Source: Chloroflexota bacterium (GTDB lineage: Bacteria; Chloroflexota; UBA11872; VXNJ01). Taken from it: DNA of 64,000 nt. The translations under genes and the position numbers were made by a program. The DNA lies in contig JAPOWW010000003.1 in assembly GCA_026707405.1 (NCBI GenBank), forward strand, positions 310,001-374,000. Direction: 5' to 3'. The notes beneath the pieces were generated by a model that saw only the letters and a program-made list of their open reading frames with translations, had not been told where the DNA came from and made no database searches. This document shows, in pieces, positions 18,244-64,000 of the stretch (position 1 is its first letter; each line of letters opens with the position of its first letter).

Positions 18244-20109
18244 ATGTTCACCATCGGCACCGCGGGGCACATAGATCACGGTAAGTCCGCCCTCGTAAAC
18301 GCTCTTACGGGCATCGACCCGGACCGCCTGCCCGAAGAGAAGTCGCGCGGAATGACGATCGATCTAGGGTTTGCCTGGCTGACGCTGCCGAGCGGACGCG
18401 ACATAAGCATTGTCGACGTGCCGGGCCATGAACGCTTCATCCGCAACATGGTAGCCGGCGCGGGCGGCATCGACGCCGCGCTTCTGGTAATCGCCGGTGA
18501 CGAAGGCGTGATGCCGCAGACGCGGGAACACCTGGCGATTTTGGACGTGCTGGGCATCGACGCCGGACTCATAGTGATTACCAAGTGCGACCTGGTCGAG
18601 CCGGACTGGCTGGAGCTTGTCGCGGCGGAGGCTCTCGAAGTAGTAGAAGGGTCGTCGCTGGACGGGTCGCCGATAGCGACTGTGTCCTCCACGCGAAGGA
18701 CGGGGCTTGACCGGCTGCTCAGGGAGCTCGACGATTTGCTCGACGGCCTCGAACAGACGCCCGCCGGGGGACGGCCGCGGCTGCCGGTCGACCGGGCGTT
18801 TTCAGTAAGCGGTTATGGAACGGTGGTTACCGGCACGCTGATCGACGGTCCGCTGAAGCAAGGTCAGGGTCTGGAAGTGCTGCCGTCCGGCGTTCGAACG
18901 CGGGTCCGCGGCATTCAGAGTCACAAAACGGCGGTGGAAGAACTGGAATCGGGTTCCCGCGCGGCTGTAAATCTGTCCGGCGTCGAGGTCTCCGACGTGC
19001 CGAGAGGCAGCGTTTTGGCCGTGCCGGGGGACCTGAGGCCATCGCGGCTTCTGGATACCAGGCTTTCGTTGTTGCGGTCGGCCATGAAACCCTTGAAAAA
19101 CGGCACGGAAATCGCCATGCATACGGGAACGGCTGAAGTCCGGGCGGCGGTGAGGCTTCTCGACGTTGACGCGCTTGAACCGGGTTCGACCGCTTGGGTC
19201 CAAATGAGAGTCCGCCAGCCGGTATCGGCCAAGCAGGGTGACCGCTTCGTTGTTCGGCAGTTGTCGCCCGCCGTAACAATAGGCGGCGGGGAGATAGTGG
19301 CCCCCAAGGCGTCGAGATTGCGGCGGCATGACTCGGACGTGCTGGAGCGGCTGGAACGGCTGGCGACGGGGGATATGGCTGATTCGATAGCGCTGGCGCT
19401 GGAACGATCGGGGCCGATGCGGAGGCGGGAACTGGCCGAAGCGGCGGGCGGCCCCGGGCCGGAGTTCGATCAGGCGATGGCCAAGGCCCTCGAGGCGGAG
19501 CAGGTCGTGCACGCGGGCAACACCTATTTTGAGTCTGAAGGACTGCGGAGGCTCGTGAATGGGGCGAAGTCGCTGCTTGCCGAGTTCCACGAGGCGAATC
19601 CCTTGCGCTCCGGGCTGCAACGCGAGGAGCTCAGGAATCGGCTGGGGCTGGGTTCGGGGCAATTCAATGATTTCATATCGCATCTGGAGTTGGAGGGAGT
19701 CGTTCAGGTTGATGGCGCGGTCGTTCGACTGACGAGTCATCGGGTCGAGCTGACGGAGGAGCAGGAACGCGCCGTCTCAGCGCTGCTCGAGGTCTTGAGA
19801 AAGGCGGGAATCAACGCGCCTCCGCTGAACGAGTTGGCCAAGCGGTTTGGAGTGGCGGACGAACTGCTGGATAGTCTTGGAGCCGAGGGACGGCTCGTGC
19901 GGGTGGCGTCGAATCTCGGCTATGAAGCGGAGTCGTTCGAGGGGATCAAGAATTCGATCCTGGAGCTGATCGAGGACCGCGGGAAAATCGACGTAGCCGG
20001 TTTACGGGACCATTTCGCGAGTAGCAGGAAGTATTGCCTGCCGATTTTGGAATACCTCGACTCGGCGGGAATAACCCGACGCGTCGGCGACTTTCGCGTT
20101 AAGCGGTAA
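18244..20109 (+). CDS. selB: Selenocysteine-specific translation elongation factor SelB
   Basis: This 621-residue GTPase delivers Sec-tRNA to UGA codons marked by a SECIS hairpin. The G1 motif is GHIDHGKS (residues 8-15), the switch region SRGMTIDLGFAW, G3 DVPGH and G4 TKCD. The EF-Tu-like domains II/III are followed, from about residue 370, by a C-terminal array of winged-helix domains (LERSGPMRRRELAEAAGG and later repeats to the end) that binds the SECIS. Its length is normal for bacterial SelB. It predicts active selenocysteine decoding, which is borne out by two in-frame-TGA genes in this window. No selA or selC was found next to it. Confidence 0.93.
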   Translation: MFTIGTAGHIDHGKSALVNALTGIDPDRLPEEKSRGMTIDLGFAWLTLPSGRDISIVDVPGHERFIRNMVAGAGGIDAALLVIAGDEGVMPQTREHLAILDVLGIDAGLIVITKCDLVEPDWLELVAAEALEVVEGSSLDGSPIATVSSTRRTGLDRLLRELDDLLDGLEQTPAGGRPRLPVDRAFSVSGYGTVVTGTLIDGPLKQGQGLEVLPSGVRTRVRGIQSHKTAVEELESGSRAAVNLSGVEVSDVPRGSVLAVPGDLRPSRLLDTRLSLLRSAMKPLKNGTEIAMHTGTAEVRAAVRLLDVDALEPGSTAWVQMRVRQPVSAKQGDRFVVRQLSPAVTIGGGEIVAPKASRLRRHDSDVLERLERLATGDMADSIALALERSGPMRRRELAEAAGGPGPEFDQAMAKALEAEQVVHAGNTYFESEGLRRLVNGAKSLLAEFHEANPLRSGLQREELRNRLGLGSGQFNDFISHLELEGVVQVDGAVVRLTSHRVELTEEQERAVSALLEVLRKAGINAPPLNELAKRFGVADELLDSLGAEGRLVRVASNLGYEAESFEGIKNSILELIEDRGKIDVAGLRDHFASSRKYCLPILEYLDSAGITRRVGDFRVKR

Positions 20110-23987: not shown

Positions 23988-24037
23988 CGTTGCGGCGACG
24001 GGTCTATGAGGGCTACGGCGCGCGGGAGGGGTGAGTG

Positions 24038-24526
24038 ATGTCCGTATACGACTTTGAAGTCGAGGATATCGACGGCAATCCCGTCGATCTCGGTAAGTTC
24101 CGGGGAACGGTATCGCTGGTCGTCAACCTCGCGAGCTTGTGAGGGCGGACTCCGCAGTACGTGCTACTGCAAGAGCTGCACGAAAGCTACGCGGGGCGTG
24201 GATTTACCGTGCTCGGCTTTCCGAGCAACGACTTTGCTGACGAGGAGCCGGGGGCGAACGACGAGATCAAGCGGTTCGCCGTGTCGAGGTACGGCGTCAC
24301 TTTCCCGATGTTCGCCAAGACCCCAGTGAAGGGGCCTGACGCGCATCCGCTTTACAAGCACCTGGCGAGGGAGTCAGTACCGCCTCGCTGGAACTTTCAC
24401 AAGTATCTAGTGGACAGGACGGGCGGCGTGGTTGCGTATTTCGATTCCAAGATGCAGCCTGATGCCGGCGAGGTCGTGAACGCTATCGAGAAACAGCTAG
24501 GGGAGGGTGGCCTCAGCGCAGGGTAA
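24038..24526 (+). CDS. Glutathione peroxidase, selenocysteine-containing (in-frame TGA at 24140-24142)
   Basis: Reading the TGA at 24140-24142 as selenocysteine gives one 162-residue glutathione peroxidase. The N-terminal part is DFEVEDIDGNPVDLGKFRG. The active-site block is NLASLUGRTPQY with Sec at residue 35, exactly where family members have Sec or Cys. The remainder continues without a break through GFPSNDF (residues 60-66) and the conserved RWNFHKYL (W118, N119). Stop-limited gene calling would give only a fragment from 24161. GGGAGGGGTGAG precedes the ATG at 24038. The catalytic Gln usual in the FPCNQF motif is Asp65 here. SelB is encoded 4 kb upstream. The 3' end overlaps the convergent EamA gene by 14 nt. 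The enzyme reduces peroxides, with thioredoxin or a thiol as likely donor. Confidence 0.9.
24140..24170 (+). promoter_or_regulatory. Sec codon and candidate SECIS hairpin of the glutathione peroxidase gene
   Basis: After the TGA (24140-24142) an exact 6-bp stem, GCAGTA at 24154-24159 pairing with TACTGC at 24165-24170, encloses a 5-nt loop CGTGC. The loop begins 17 nt after the TGA, inside the range known for bacterial SECIS elements read by SelB. The loop contains G and U residues that SelB typically contacts. This is a candidate only; folding and SelB binding are untested. Confidence 0.65.
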
Positions 24527-26831: not shown

Positions 26832-27389
26832 CTAGCCGCCGGCGCGTTCGGTCAGCAGGTCGTCGACGACCTGGAGTCCCTGGATTATCTCGGGGAGGAG
26901 TTTTACGTGGACGTTAATTCCGTGCTTGCCGGGACGGAGCTTTCCCTTGTCGTCGCGGAAGTGGACGCGGGCGAATGCGTAGTCGTTCTTGTTGAAAGTA
27001 GACAGTCCGATCAGCCATTCATCGCCGTCGGAACGGGGGAGTCGGGAAAACACTTTTACGTTCCCGGGAAGATCGTCCGCCGATAGCTCCGGGGGCGCGG
27101 TCTCCACGGCCATGAGGGCGTTGATTATCGCGGACAGAAGTTCTTCGTGGACATTGATACCGTGCTTGCCGGGCCGGAGCATGTCCTTATCGTCGCGGAA
27201 ATAGGCGCGAGCAAATGCATAGTCAGTGTTGTTGAACTTGGAGACCCCGACCAGCCAATCCTCGCGCCGGTTCTTGGGGATTCTCTGAACGATCTCGACG
27301 TCCTTTGGCAGGTCGTCGGCGGTTATCAGTTTGGTGGATTCGGCCATTTCGCTCGCTTCGCTCAAGTGTCGGGATTCGGAATTGAACAC
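26832..27389 (-). CDS. Tandem PC4-like (transcriptional coactivator p15 fold) protein
   Basis: The 185-residue product consists of two near-identical units set exactly 80 residues apart: DDLP at 25 and 105, YAFARxxFRDDK in both, and RPGKHGINVH at 72-81 and 152-161. The FRDDKxxLRPGKHGI pattern is the core of the PC4/Sub1 fold, whose dimer binds single-stranded or melted DNA. Here two copies in one chain could make an intramolecular dimer. The function in bacteria is uncertain; ssDNA protection or transcription roles are inferred from the family. The start could be GTG at 27389 or ATG at 27347, and neither has a strong ribosome-binding site. Confidence 0.65.
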   Translation of the reverse strand: MFNSESRHLSEASEMAESTKLITADDLPKDVEIVQRIPKNRREDWLVGVSKFNNTDYAFARAYFRDDKDMLRPGKHGINVHEELLSAIINALMAVETAPPELSADDLPGNVKVFSRLPRSDGDEWLIGLSTFNKNDYAFARVHFRDDKGKLRPGKHGINVHVKLLPEIIQGLQVVDDLLTERAGG

Positions 27390-27493: not shown

Positions 27494-28870
27494 TTAGGAC
27501 GGCTCCAGCTCCCACACCTGCACTCTGCCCAGCGAACCAAGGATCGGGTCGGCGTGCTTGGAGGCGCTGCCGATTCCCGCCACGACCTTGCCCGCGATCT
27601 TAATGAACTGCCCCTTCCGTCCTGAGCGATATACCACCTCGTCGTCGGGAGGAGTCGAAAAGAAATGCGAGCGGCTGATGACTTTCCAACCGGTGTCGCG
27701 AAACAGCTTTTTGGCCTCCCGCCGCGTGAGCGCCTTGAACGGACCGAGGTGGGGATCGGGGGCGAGGGCGTACTCCACGCCCCTGTGGCCTATGGCTTTG
27801 CGGAACTGTTTGAGGATGGAGTAATAGGAGTTGCGGTTAGTGAAGGCGACGACCAGACGTCCCTTGGGGCGGATCAGGTCACGCAGGCGCCTGAGCAATC
27901 GCAACTGCTCGGTTCGCGGCAAGGACTCAAGACGGAAGATACACGTTATGAAGTCGTATGAGACGCCGTTCATGCTGTAGAAGTTGGAGTATTCGACTTC
28001 GGTAACGGAGCGTACGACCCTGGCCCTAATAAATTCGCGGACCTGCTCGGTCATTTCCACGGCGGTGATGTCGGCGTCCGGAAAACTCCGTGAGAACGCT
28101 TCGGTGTATATCCCCGTGCAAGGCAATACGTCGAGCCACTGGCATTCGCCGGTCGGGGACCACCGGCGAATCGCCGCGTTGACCGCCTCGAACTCCGAGA
28201 TTATGGGCTTGTTGTAATGGGCGCCGTTGCGAATTTTGGCCATCTGGAAATGGCTAATCTGATCCATCGACCACACGTTGGGGTCTTCCTCGAACGGCCA
28301 GTGACCGGTCCCCTTGTAATGGTTGAAGTGGAGCACGGAGTCGATCGAGCGACGCCGCGGCGCGCGCAGATTGAGCTTGTAGTAGCCGAAGAGAACGAGC
28401 GCAAGGACGGTCTGCTCCTCCGGAAGCCGCAGGAGCCTCTTGATCCGGCCCACGTTACCGAGCGTGTCCACCCAGCAGCCGCCCAGTCCCAAATCGTGTG
28501 CCATCAACATCATGTTCTGAACGGCCGCCGACGCGCTCTGCACCCAGGCGAGGTTCTCGCGCGTGTACTTGTGCGAATACGTTACGAAAATTGCGACCGG
28601 CGCAAGAGTGATGAACCTAGTCTCTTCGGCTATCTGGTCGATCAGCTCCGGGTCGTCGACGGCGATGAACTCCCACAGCTGCAGATTGCAGGCGCTTGGG
28701 GCGTAGCGGGCGGCGTCGATGATTTGGTCGACGACCTCGCGCGGAACGGGGTCTTTCTTGAACTTGCGTACCGTTCGACGGCTGAAAATTGCTTCTTGAA
28801 GTTCCAACTGAATCTTGCTTCGTAGAATGGCCAGCCAAAGATTTTGCCTAATATAGCGTCTGATTTCCAC
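27494..28870 (-). CDS. Nitroreductase-methyltransferase fusion protein
   Basis: This 458-residue protein joins two domains. Residues about 25-190 are a nitroreductase-fold FMN domain, starting AIFSRRTVRKFKKDP with the FMN-phosphate arginines, then AARYAPSACNLQLWEF and AHDLGLGGCWVDTLG. Residues about 225-420 look like a class I SAM methyltransferase: a degenerate motif I WLDVLPCTGIYTEAF, then ITAVEMTEQ, YDFITCIFRLESL and RPKGRLVVAFTNRNS. Nitroreductases usually stand alone, so the fusion is unusual. It suggests coupled reduction and methylation of one small molecule, but the substrate is unknown. The frame is continuous, with no sign of a sequencing join. Confidence 0.7.
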   Translation of the reverse strand: MEIRRYIRQNLWLAILRSKIQLELQEAIFSRRTVRKFKKDPVPREVVDQIIDAARYAPSACNLQLWEFIAVDDPELIDQIAEETRFITLAPVAIFVTYSHKYTRENLAWVQSASAAVQNMMLMAHDLGLGGCWVDTLGNVGRIKRLLRLPEEQTVLALVLFGYYKLNLRAPRRRSIDSVLHFNHYKGTGHWPFEEDPNVWSMDQISHFQMAKIRNGAHYNKPIISEFEAVNAAIRRWSPTGECQWLDVLPCTGIYTEAFSRSFPDADITAVEMTEQVREFIRARVVRSVTEVEYSNFYSMNGVSYDFITCIFRLESLPRTEQLRLLRRLRDLIRPKGRLVVAFTNRNSYYSILKQFRKAIGHRGVEYALAPDPHLGPFKALTRREAKKLFRDTGWKVISRSHFFSTPPDDEVVYRSGRKGQFIKIAGKVVAGIGSASKHADPILGSLGRVQVWELEPS

Positions 28871-44271: not shown

Positions 44272-47067
44272 TTACCTATCAGAAATAGCTTTGCCGACCA
44301 CCTCTTCGTGGACATCATACGAGACTTCGCCGGTCTCGGAGACTGTGATCCTGAGCACGGGAATGATGGCGGCATCGCGCCAGTATTCGGGCTTAAGGTG
44401 ATGCCGCAAACGCACCGCGAGTACGTAACTGTGTGCGTCGAGCACCCCTTCGGATCGCTTTAGGGGATTGAACGCGCCATGCTCTCGTCGGATCGCCAGG
44501 CTGGGGGCGTGGAAATCAAATTCGTATTCGAAGAAACTCGTTCCCCTGCCAGGATTCAAATAGCTGCCAAACCACATTTCGAAAGCGGTAGAGCCGTCTG
44601 GGCGGACCTGGCTCGACGGGTTCCAAGGAGGAGTATCAGTGGTGATCAACACCCAGTCCTGGCTTGTCCACCGGTCGGGAGCGCGGTCGTCGAAGGTTAC
44701 AGTGAAGGCGATACGCCCCTCCGCTTCGCTTACGTCCGACAGCCGGACGCTGAACTGCAGCGGCTCCGCCAACGTGGGCGGAGGCATGATTGGATCGACG
44801 GCACCACTGAGCGCGTAGACGGCGGTGTCTTCGTTCCACCAGATGCGCTGGCGCGCCGCTGGAGTAAGCGCCCCCAATGGTGTGACTATGAGGTCAGGCA
44901 CCTCGTCGGCGACCGGCTCCATCCACCACGGCGACTGTAAGTGCAGCGTGGTCGGATCTACCACGCCTTGCAGCCGGGCATGGGAGAGCGCCCATGCGGT
45001 GTGGAAGAGGTTAGAGAATGCGAAACGCTCGGGGACCAGGACCGTGGCCGATGCCGGAACAGACTGCCGCAGTAGCTCATACGATCCGGGCGCCGGCGCC
45101 ACATCGATCGCGTCGAACGCGGGCAGGACACCGTAGAGGCTCTCCGAACCGTCTCGAACCAAGAGCTCGAAGAGGTTGGGATCGTTGAGCCGCTCGACTG
45201 CCTTTCTGGGCAGGCCCTCTACCCACTCGTCGGTCGCGTGCACGTATTCGAATCCGAGCCGGCGGACGGCCGCCGGTTCGAGAAAAAGCAGGACATCCCT
45301 ATAGGCAGGCCCCTCCCTTCTTCTGAGATGGACGAGCCCGTCGAATCCCGATGCATTGGGACGGCCCGTGGCGTAGGTCATTTCATGCGGGCGAGGGGAA
45401 AACACTCGCGCATCGACCGCGGTGTTGTTACGAATAAATGCAGCGATGCGGTCGGGCAGGCTCCGCAACTGGTAACGTCCCTCCGACGGTCCGCCGTCGA
45501 TCTGCGAAGCTGGCCGGACGTTTGCAAGCTCAACCCCCGAGCCGATCGCCAAGCGCAGATTGTTGATCGGCGTCGCGACTGTCGGCCAGACTACAAGGCT
45601 GACGAGCACCGCGCCCGCGGCGTATCGCCAGCGGGTTCGCAGCTTCGCCAGACCGCCGCCAAGCGCCAGCAACAAAGCGAACAGCGCAAAGTTGCGTGCA
45701 CGTCCGGCCAAGCGACCCAGATCTTGCGGCGCGGGATCGTACCGCAGCACCAATGCGGCGATCATCAGCATCAACGCACCCATGGTCAATGCCAACACTA
45801 ACCGGTCGCGCCAGGCCACTAGCGCCGCCACGCCGGCGACAGCCAGCGGACCAACACCCAGCAGGGCTATACCTCCTGGCAACCTCTCCAACACTCCCAG
45901 CAGTCGCCAGTCCCGCACGTCTTCGATCCAGCCGAGCGCTAAGCCAGACGTCGCCGAGTCTCCCGATATGACCGTAGAAAACCCTCCGGTAAGCAGCAAA
46001 AGCGCGGCGAGCGCAAGGCCGCAGGCGGAGCGGATCAACACGCTCCGCAACGGAGAACCGGCGCGGCTGCACTGCACGAGATGGACCGCCTCAAGTCCTA
46101 CCCACAAGAAGAGCACGATCGGAGTGAGAGTTGGGGAAGTGAGGCCGAGAAAGCCCGTGAGCGCGGCTAGAGTCAGTACAGTTGACCAGGTGCGGCGCTC
46201 CGGGCGAGCGGCGCGTTCCAGCACTACGAACGCGAGGGTGTAAGTTAGAAGAAAGGACGGCTTCCAGATATTTGGAAGCGCCGCAAATTTCGCTGCTAGC
46301 GGCCACGATTCCGACGACGGCCAGTAGGTCTCCGTCAATGAGGCCCGGATACCCGCCTCCGGCAACCCCGTCGGCAAAGTTATGTCTATGAGCTCGAACG
46401 CGCGAGGAAACGTCCACGCGCCGGTCGCGAGCAGCAGCGGAGTCAAGACCTATGCGCTAAGCCACCCCCCGCGCCGCAGCAGCGCCGTACCCACCACCAA
46501 AACCAAGCTAATCCAGGCATATGCGCAAAGGAGTTCGTGGCCGAACGCCAGCTCGAGACCGAACTGGGGCGTCAGCAGCCCGTTCAACATGTGCGGGCCA
46601 TAGTGATATTGGGCTGGCGTGCCCGGGTTCCAGGGGAACTCGGGCGGAAATATCCCCGCGCGGATCGACGCGGCCAGTCCCAAGTGCATATAGTCGTCGG
46701 CTATTCCCAAGGTCTGCCGGCTGGCGAGTCCGATAAAGAAGAGCGGCACAGCCACCAGGGCGAACATTGAGGCGACGCGTAGCCGCGGCGGGACACGTTT
46801 CGGAGAGCGCCAGACCAAGACGGCGGCCAGCGCCAGCACTACTATCCAGCCGGCGATAGCTCCGGGCATTCCCGGCAGCGCGTGCACAACCAGGTTGACG
46901 ACGACGCCCCAGATCGCGGGGCCAACGATCAGCCCCTGGGCCAGCGCAACGCGGTGGTCGGTTTCTCTCAGCCCCACGCGGACGATGACATAGCCGACGC
47001 CAGCGAGCGCGGCCAGCTCGGCCAGCAGAAACAGGAGGCCGGGAACTACCGACGGATCAACTGTCAT
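44272..47067 (-). pseudogene. Large GT-C-like membrane protein gene interrupted by an in-frame TAG
   Basis: Two open frames on the minus strand, 47067 down to a TAG at 46452-46450 and then 46449 down to 44272, are in the same reading frame. They are separated only by that single amber codon. Read through, they give about 931 residues: membrane segments from the start through about residue 530, then a soluble beta-rich C-terminal region, the same layout as the intact 934-residue protein at 12117-14921. The break falls between two membrane helices (GGWLSA, then stop, then VLTPLLLATG). No frameshift or repeat is present. A nonsense mutation, a sequencing error or a recoded codon are all possible; I favour the first two. 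A TTG at 46446 could start the second part. Confidence 0.72.
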
Positions 47068-63484: not shown

Positions 63485-64000
63485 ATGTCCGATTCGAAGA
63501 CTGCTCCACGGCTGACTCAGTACTCGCACGGCGCCGGGTGAGGCTGCAAGCTCAGTAGAAGCCAGCTAGCGCAGGTTCTGCGCTCGTTTCCGGCCATCGA
63601 CGACGCCAGGGTGATCCTCGGCGCCGACGCGGCTGACGATGCCGCCGTGTACCGTCTTTCGGACGATAAGGCGCTCGTGTTCACGGCTGACTTTTTCACG
63701 CCGATTGTGGACGATCCTTACGATTTCGGGCGCATCGCCGCCGCCAACGCGCTGAGTGATGTTTATGCAGTCGGCGGCACGCCGTTCGCCGCTCTTAACA
63801 TCGTCTGCTTTCCCAAGGACGATTTACCGGCGGAGGTCCTGTCGGGGATTCTGCGGGGCGGACGAGACAAGGCGGAAGAGGCGGGCGTAGTGATTCTGGG
63901 CGGACACACGATAGACGATCCAGAGCCGAAATACGGTCTCTCGGTCACAGGCTCGATCCACCCTGACAGGGTAGTCACGAACGCGGGCGCAAAACCCGGC
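63485..64000 (+). CDS. selD: Selenophosphate synthetase SelD, selenocysteine-containing, truncated by window edge (TGA at 63539-63541)
   Basis: Reading TGA at 63539-63541 as selenocysteine yields an open frame to the window end, 172 codons. It starts MSDSKTAPRLTQYSHGAG, then Sec19-GCKLS, the active-site block of SelD where family members have Sec or Cys, followed by the catalytic Lys22. Further SelD blocks are ADAADDAAVY, VFTADFFTPIVDDPYDFGRI, AANALSDVYAVGGTPFAALN and GHTIDDPEPKYGLSVTG. Ordinary gene calling would break or miss it. SelD makes selenophosphate from selenide and ATP for Sec-tRNA synthesis, complementing selB at 18 kb. The start ATG at 63485 gives the usual short N-terminus. Confidence 0.92.
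63539..63584 (+). promoter_or_regulatory. Sec codon and candidate SECIS hairpin of selD
   Basis: Downstream of the TGA (63539-63541), AGCGCAG at 63568-63574 pairs perfectly with CTGCGCT at 63578-63584 around a GTT loop, a 7-bp stem. Its top, GCAGGTTCTGC, strongly resembles the apical GCAGGTCTGC of the E. coli fdhF SECIS. The loop begins 33 nt after the TGA, within but near the long end of the bacterial range. This is a candidate only. Confidence 0.6.

Follow-up and report, generated by a model that had tools for sequence, protein, structure and literature searches.

The 64,000-nucleotide stretch of DNA analysed here, referred to as the window, carries on its forward strand a peroxidase-like frame interrupted by a single TGA, and the question raised by this locus is whether that codon ends translation or specifies selenocysteine (Sec) at the catalytic position. 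Positions 24038–24526 (+) form one 163-codon frame with its sole TGA at codon 35 (24140–24142) and a terminal TAA at 24524–24526. These coordinates, the lone in-frame TGA, the surrounding motif NLASLUG and the terminal TAA had been given in a preliminary description of the locus as a Sec-containing glutathione peroxidase (GPx), and all were reproduced from the sequence and its translation. When all six window frames were scanned blind, by codon usage, for coding-like sequence flanking a TGA, the TGA at 24140 ranked first.

Two candidate starts are available on the plus strand, GTG at 24035 and ATG at 24038. The frame of the preliminary description stood, with one small correction: GTG 24035 is probably the true start, as judged by sequence comparison, because the ATG is replaced by AGA in the sister species of the genus, where the only in-frame start is GTG. 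A Shine-Dalgarno-like sequence, GGGAGGGG, lies at 24024–24031 (+), and its GGAGGG is also present in the sister species. The coding sequence, with TGA read as selenocysteine, is accordingly assigned to 24035–24526 (+).

The read-through protein matches PF00255 over the whole domain (1.2e-35; 121.7 bits, cut-off 27). The 34-residue piece before the TGA and the piece after it match this family separately and contiguously, at profile positions 1–31 and 34–107, so neither piece is a chance frame, and the claim that conserved family sequence flanks the TGA in one frame is borne out. The NCBIfam equivalog cut-offs for PRK10606 and Gpx7 were not reached. Alignment of the read-through translation to Cys- and Sec-GPx, a check suggested in the preliminary description, placed the TGA in the column of the peroxidatic residue, the position originally claimed for it: Cys occupies this column in 110/110 Cys homologues, and TGA is found there in eight homologues including the window gene.

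The alignment also shows Trp118 and Asn119 in place beside Sec35, with Asp65 at the Gln position of the tetrad; Asp is found there in 41 of the 110 Cys homologues and in all eight Sec ones. The resolving Cys, 46 residues past the catalytic Cys in 109/110 Cys homologues, is Ala in both the window gene and the sister species. The window protein contains no cysteine whatever and thus has no resolving Cys. An AlphaFold model of the protein (pLDDT 94.4) has only GPx structures as its best PDB matches, with TM about 0.85–0.92, and a GPx fold is confidently predicted.

Hairpin downstream of the TGA and selenocysteine machinery

A bSECIS-like hairpin, GCAGTA-CGTGC-TACTGC, is located at 24154–24170 (+). 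The perfect 6-bp hairpin reported just past the TGA was thus recovered; it begins 11 nt downstream and is 17 nt long. Its 5-nt loop (CGTGC), 6-bp stem, G at loop position 2 and 17-nt distance from TGA to loop fall within the published bSECIS limits (loop 3–9 nt, stem 4–16 bp, G in the first two loop positions, UGA-to-loop 16–37 nt; PMC13188914). All six Watson-Crick pairs are present in seven of the eight Sec genes of the class (five of six pairs in the eighth, which has a broken frame), with the hairpin complete in 5/6 of the more distant TGA-GPx genes and carrying a single mismatch in the sixth, and the complete hairpin is present in 0/110 Cys homologues; these counts are non-independent, since the Sec genes are a small set of relatives, and Fisher p-values overstate their independence. 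Compensatory changes were observed among the Sec genes in two stem pairs (C-G/G-C and C-G/U-A), and 98% of cells are paired, whereas at most 46% were when the stem partner was slid by 1–3 columns as a control.

The stem is partly forced by the protein because the CAG...CTG encoding 'QYxxLQ' already pairs. With the protein fixed and window codon usage applied, six of six Watson-Crick pairs arose in 0.9% of synonymous draws (16% with G-U allowed), and six pairs arose in about 4% of synonymous versions of the relatives' genes. An argument for significance from the hairpin alone was weakened by this synonymous-codon control and was set aside; taken by itself, the hairpin is moderate evidence for Sec. 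When the 45 nt past the TGA were folded, the minimum-energy structure contained the hairpin for the window gene and one relative (L129) and lacked it for the sister species and all remaining relatives; owing to this inconsistency reliance was placed on the fixed +11 position and the pair counts. No known SECIS or tRNA was detected in the window by Rfam and ARAGORN scans.

Two components of the Sec machinery are encoded within the window. The Sec-specific elongation factor SelB lies at 18244–20109 (+) (TIGR00475, 341.7 bits, cut-off 242) and has SelB winged-helix domains. The selenophosphate synthetase SelD begins at 63485 (+) and runs past the right edge of the window at 64000, continuing in L124 (TIGR00476, 408 bits, one internal TGA). 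The in-frame TGA of selD, at 63539–63541 (+), corresponds to Sec19 in the motif HGAGUGCK and is followed by a bSECIS-like hairpin of its own, AGCGCA-GGTTC-TGCGCT, at 63568–63584 (+). SelA (547 bits) and a tRNA-Sec whose anticodon is UCA (74.3 bits) were identified in the genome, which by these matches holds a complete predicted machinery of SelA, SelB, SelD and tRNA-Sec. Across the class, SelA scores above cut-off in 39 of 41 genomes and SelD reads through one TGA in 38 of 39 matches, the remaining match starting at profile position 54 and lacking that region. Three C-terminal-domain matches to molybdopterin oxidoreductases were found in the genome, with no stop codon inside that domain.

In the proposed mechanism, SelA would produce Sec-tRNA-Sec using selenophosphate supplied by SelD. 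When the ribosome reaches codon 35, the hairpin that starts 11 nt past the UGA would bind SelB carrying Sec-tRNA-Sec, and Sec would be inserted in place of termination.

Conservation in relatives and alternative readings

The sister species (G259) has the same TGA and the same hairpin at 87% identity. The two loci also have neighbouring genes in common, namely hydroxyacyl-CoA dehydrogenase, aldo/keto reductase, GPx, EamA-like transporter and serine hydroxymethyltransferase. Between the two genes, dN/dS is 0.22 for the 34 codons preceding the TGA, which hold 8 differences, and 0.19 for the 127 codons following it, which hold 49. These values indicate that both sides are under purifying selection and argue against both a pseudogene and a true stop. 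TGA-GPx genes were found in six further genomes of the class besides the genus pair. Close relatives with a genuine stop and no downstream conservation would, by the preliminary description, have refuted the reading; the opposite was seen, the TGA being kept in the second species and in the six class genomes.

The least improbable alternative is a pseudogene, a former Cys-GPx in which TGC or TGT mutated to a stop. TGA is indeed one base from either codon, and standard translation ends there. Set against this are the selection acting on both flanks, the identical TGA in a second species, the hairpin and full Sec machinery, and a frame with no other lesion, which together leave the pseudogene a very improbable explanation. 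Somewhat less probable again is that the short ORF at 24161–24526, with an internal GTG start and no active site, is the real product. This is what a standard caller would give: the longest standard ORF begins at GTG 24161, which confirms the earlier statement that standard calling drops 41 codons including the active site, and automatic annotation would yield a truncated GPx. However, no Shine-Dalgarno-like sequence precedes GTG 24161, the product would be without its active site, and the 34 codons before the TGA show both purifying selection and a match to the family.

A sequencing or assembly error for TGC or TGT, conceivable for a single base in a draft genome, has a smaller chance still, as TGA stands at this codon in independently assembled genomes from two species of the genus and in six others of the class, and the genes with TGA carry the hairpin whereas those with Cys do not. 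Genome-wide reassignment of TGA to Trp or Gly is the most remote of the four, since nothing favours it beyond the read-through itself, 6 of the 18 clear window ORFs end in TGA, the genome has a tRNA-Sec with a UCA anticodon, and both read-through TGAs fall at Cys/Sec positions of their families. The read-through sites together with the TGA-terminated ORFs indicate that TGA is Sec at chosen places and a stop elsewhere.

The Sec-encoding interpretation originally put forward is therefore supported by the machinery, the kept TGA, the two-sided selection, the compensated hairpin and the second TGA-containing selenoprotein gene, selD. The gene almost certainly encodes a full-length predicted selenocysteine peroxidase of the GPx family (PF00255), of about 162 residues. 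SelD is open to the same mis-annotation, as standard calling truncates selD too.

Among the other ORFs of the window, one at 27494–28870 (-) fuses a nitroreductase domain and a methyltransferase domain. The protein encoded at 26832–27389 (-) is made up of two halves that resemble each other, of which one matches the PC4 transcriptional coactivator domain, and a 724-aa ORF at 44272–46446 (-) has no Pfam match.

Distribution, origin and the reducing thiol

No GPx match was found in the other searched members of the window's family and order. Within the class, the Sec form of GPx occurs only in the window's genus and in one other family (f4). None of the best 80 named relatives has the Sec form. 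The tree places the two Sec groups apart, with the window's genus adjoining proteobacterial Cys-GPx at weak support. Two Sec origins in the class were considered, but a single common Sec clade was not rejected by the AU test (p-AU 0.112). The gene may have arisen by transfer of a Sec gene or by separate Cys-to-Sec changes. With two Sec genes, GPx and selD, the lineage seems to use selenium in peroxide defence besides making selenophosphate.

Three relatives in the class have a Sec-GPx plus a separate Cys-GPx (L127 and L132 in G189, L128 and L133 in G237, L129 and L134 in G165). In another (L131 of G322), the frame of the Sec-GPx breaks soon past FPCND and one hairpin pair is lost, which points to gene decay or to a fault in the assembly; no SelA above cut-off was found in the G322 genome.

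Catalysis by the window protein would proceed through the Sec35 selenolate, positioned by Trp118 and Asn119 and also by Asp65 where many homologues have Gln, which would reduce the hydroperoxide. Because the protein has no cysteine, the resulting selenenic acid of Sec35 could form no internal bond and would need a thiol or thiol protein from outside as its reductant. In animal Sec-GPx the oxidised selenium is reduced directly by an outside thiol (mechanism in PMC9925728). The glutathione synthesis families PF04107, PF04262 and PF02955 had no match in the 94.5% complete genome, for which reason glutathione is doubtful as the reductant and may not be the reducing thiol; glutathione uptake, or genes in the 5% of the genome that is missing, could alter this assessment. 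The broader proposal of a Cys-free GPx with one Sec that relies on a reductant other than glutathione, since its host does not produce this thiol, and with Sec gained separately in two families of the class, is speculative and is considered rather unlikely as a whole. The lack of any Cys in this Sec-GPx and the undetected glutathione synthesis of its host are unusual features, and they pose a simple, testable question, namely which reductant serves such an enzyme when neither a resolving Cys nor glutathione is available.

Comparison with known systems

The bacterial Cys-GPx enzymes (thioredoxin or glutathione peroxidases) have about 45–57% full-length identity to the window protein. They combine a peroxidatic Cys with a resolving Cys (the latter in all but one of the homologues aligned here), whereas the window protein has Sec and Ala at these positions.

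Human GPX4, a monomeric Sec-GPx (6elw), has its fold in common with the window model (TM 0.84/0.82), as well as the Sec-Trp-Asn arrangement and a mechanism without a resolving Cys step. The two differ in that the tetrad Gln of GPX4 is Asp in the window protein, the SECIS adjoins the UGA in the window gene but lies in the 3' UTR in GPX4, and the window's host genome is without detected glutathione synthesis genes.

The E. coli K-12 fdhF element, used as a positive control for hairpin geometry, is a 17-nt stem-loop 11 nt past the UGA with G-U in its apical loop, as is the window hairpin. Unlike the fdhF SECIS, the window hairpin has no bulged U in its stem, and its sequence differs; this sequence is presumably matched to the SelB of its own genome.

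Bacterial Sec-GPx has been in the literature since the mid-2000s (PMC1794560, PMC2398784, PMC13188914). It was reported in Treponema denticola (PMC1794560), and ocean metagenomes of the Global Ocean Sampling contained 40 Sec-GPx against 3,287 Cys forms (PMC2398784). A 2026 review, which lists WP_010957027.1, enters bacterial Sec-GPx as a high-confidence prediction (PMC13188914). As described, the Treponema denticola, WP_010957027.1 and ocean proteins resemble the window gene product in belonging to PF00255 and in having a peroxidatic Sec and the UxxT motif. Bacterial selenoprotein genes also carry the bSECIS inside the coding region (PMC1794560, PMC2398784, PMC13188914), as the window gene does. 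The window gene differs from the known bacterial examples in its lineage, whose near relatives are mostly without GPx. Sec-GPx is thus an already known kind of bacterial selenoprotein, to which the window gene adds a computationally well-supported member.
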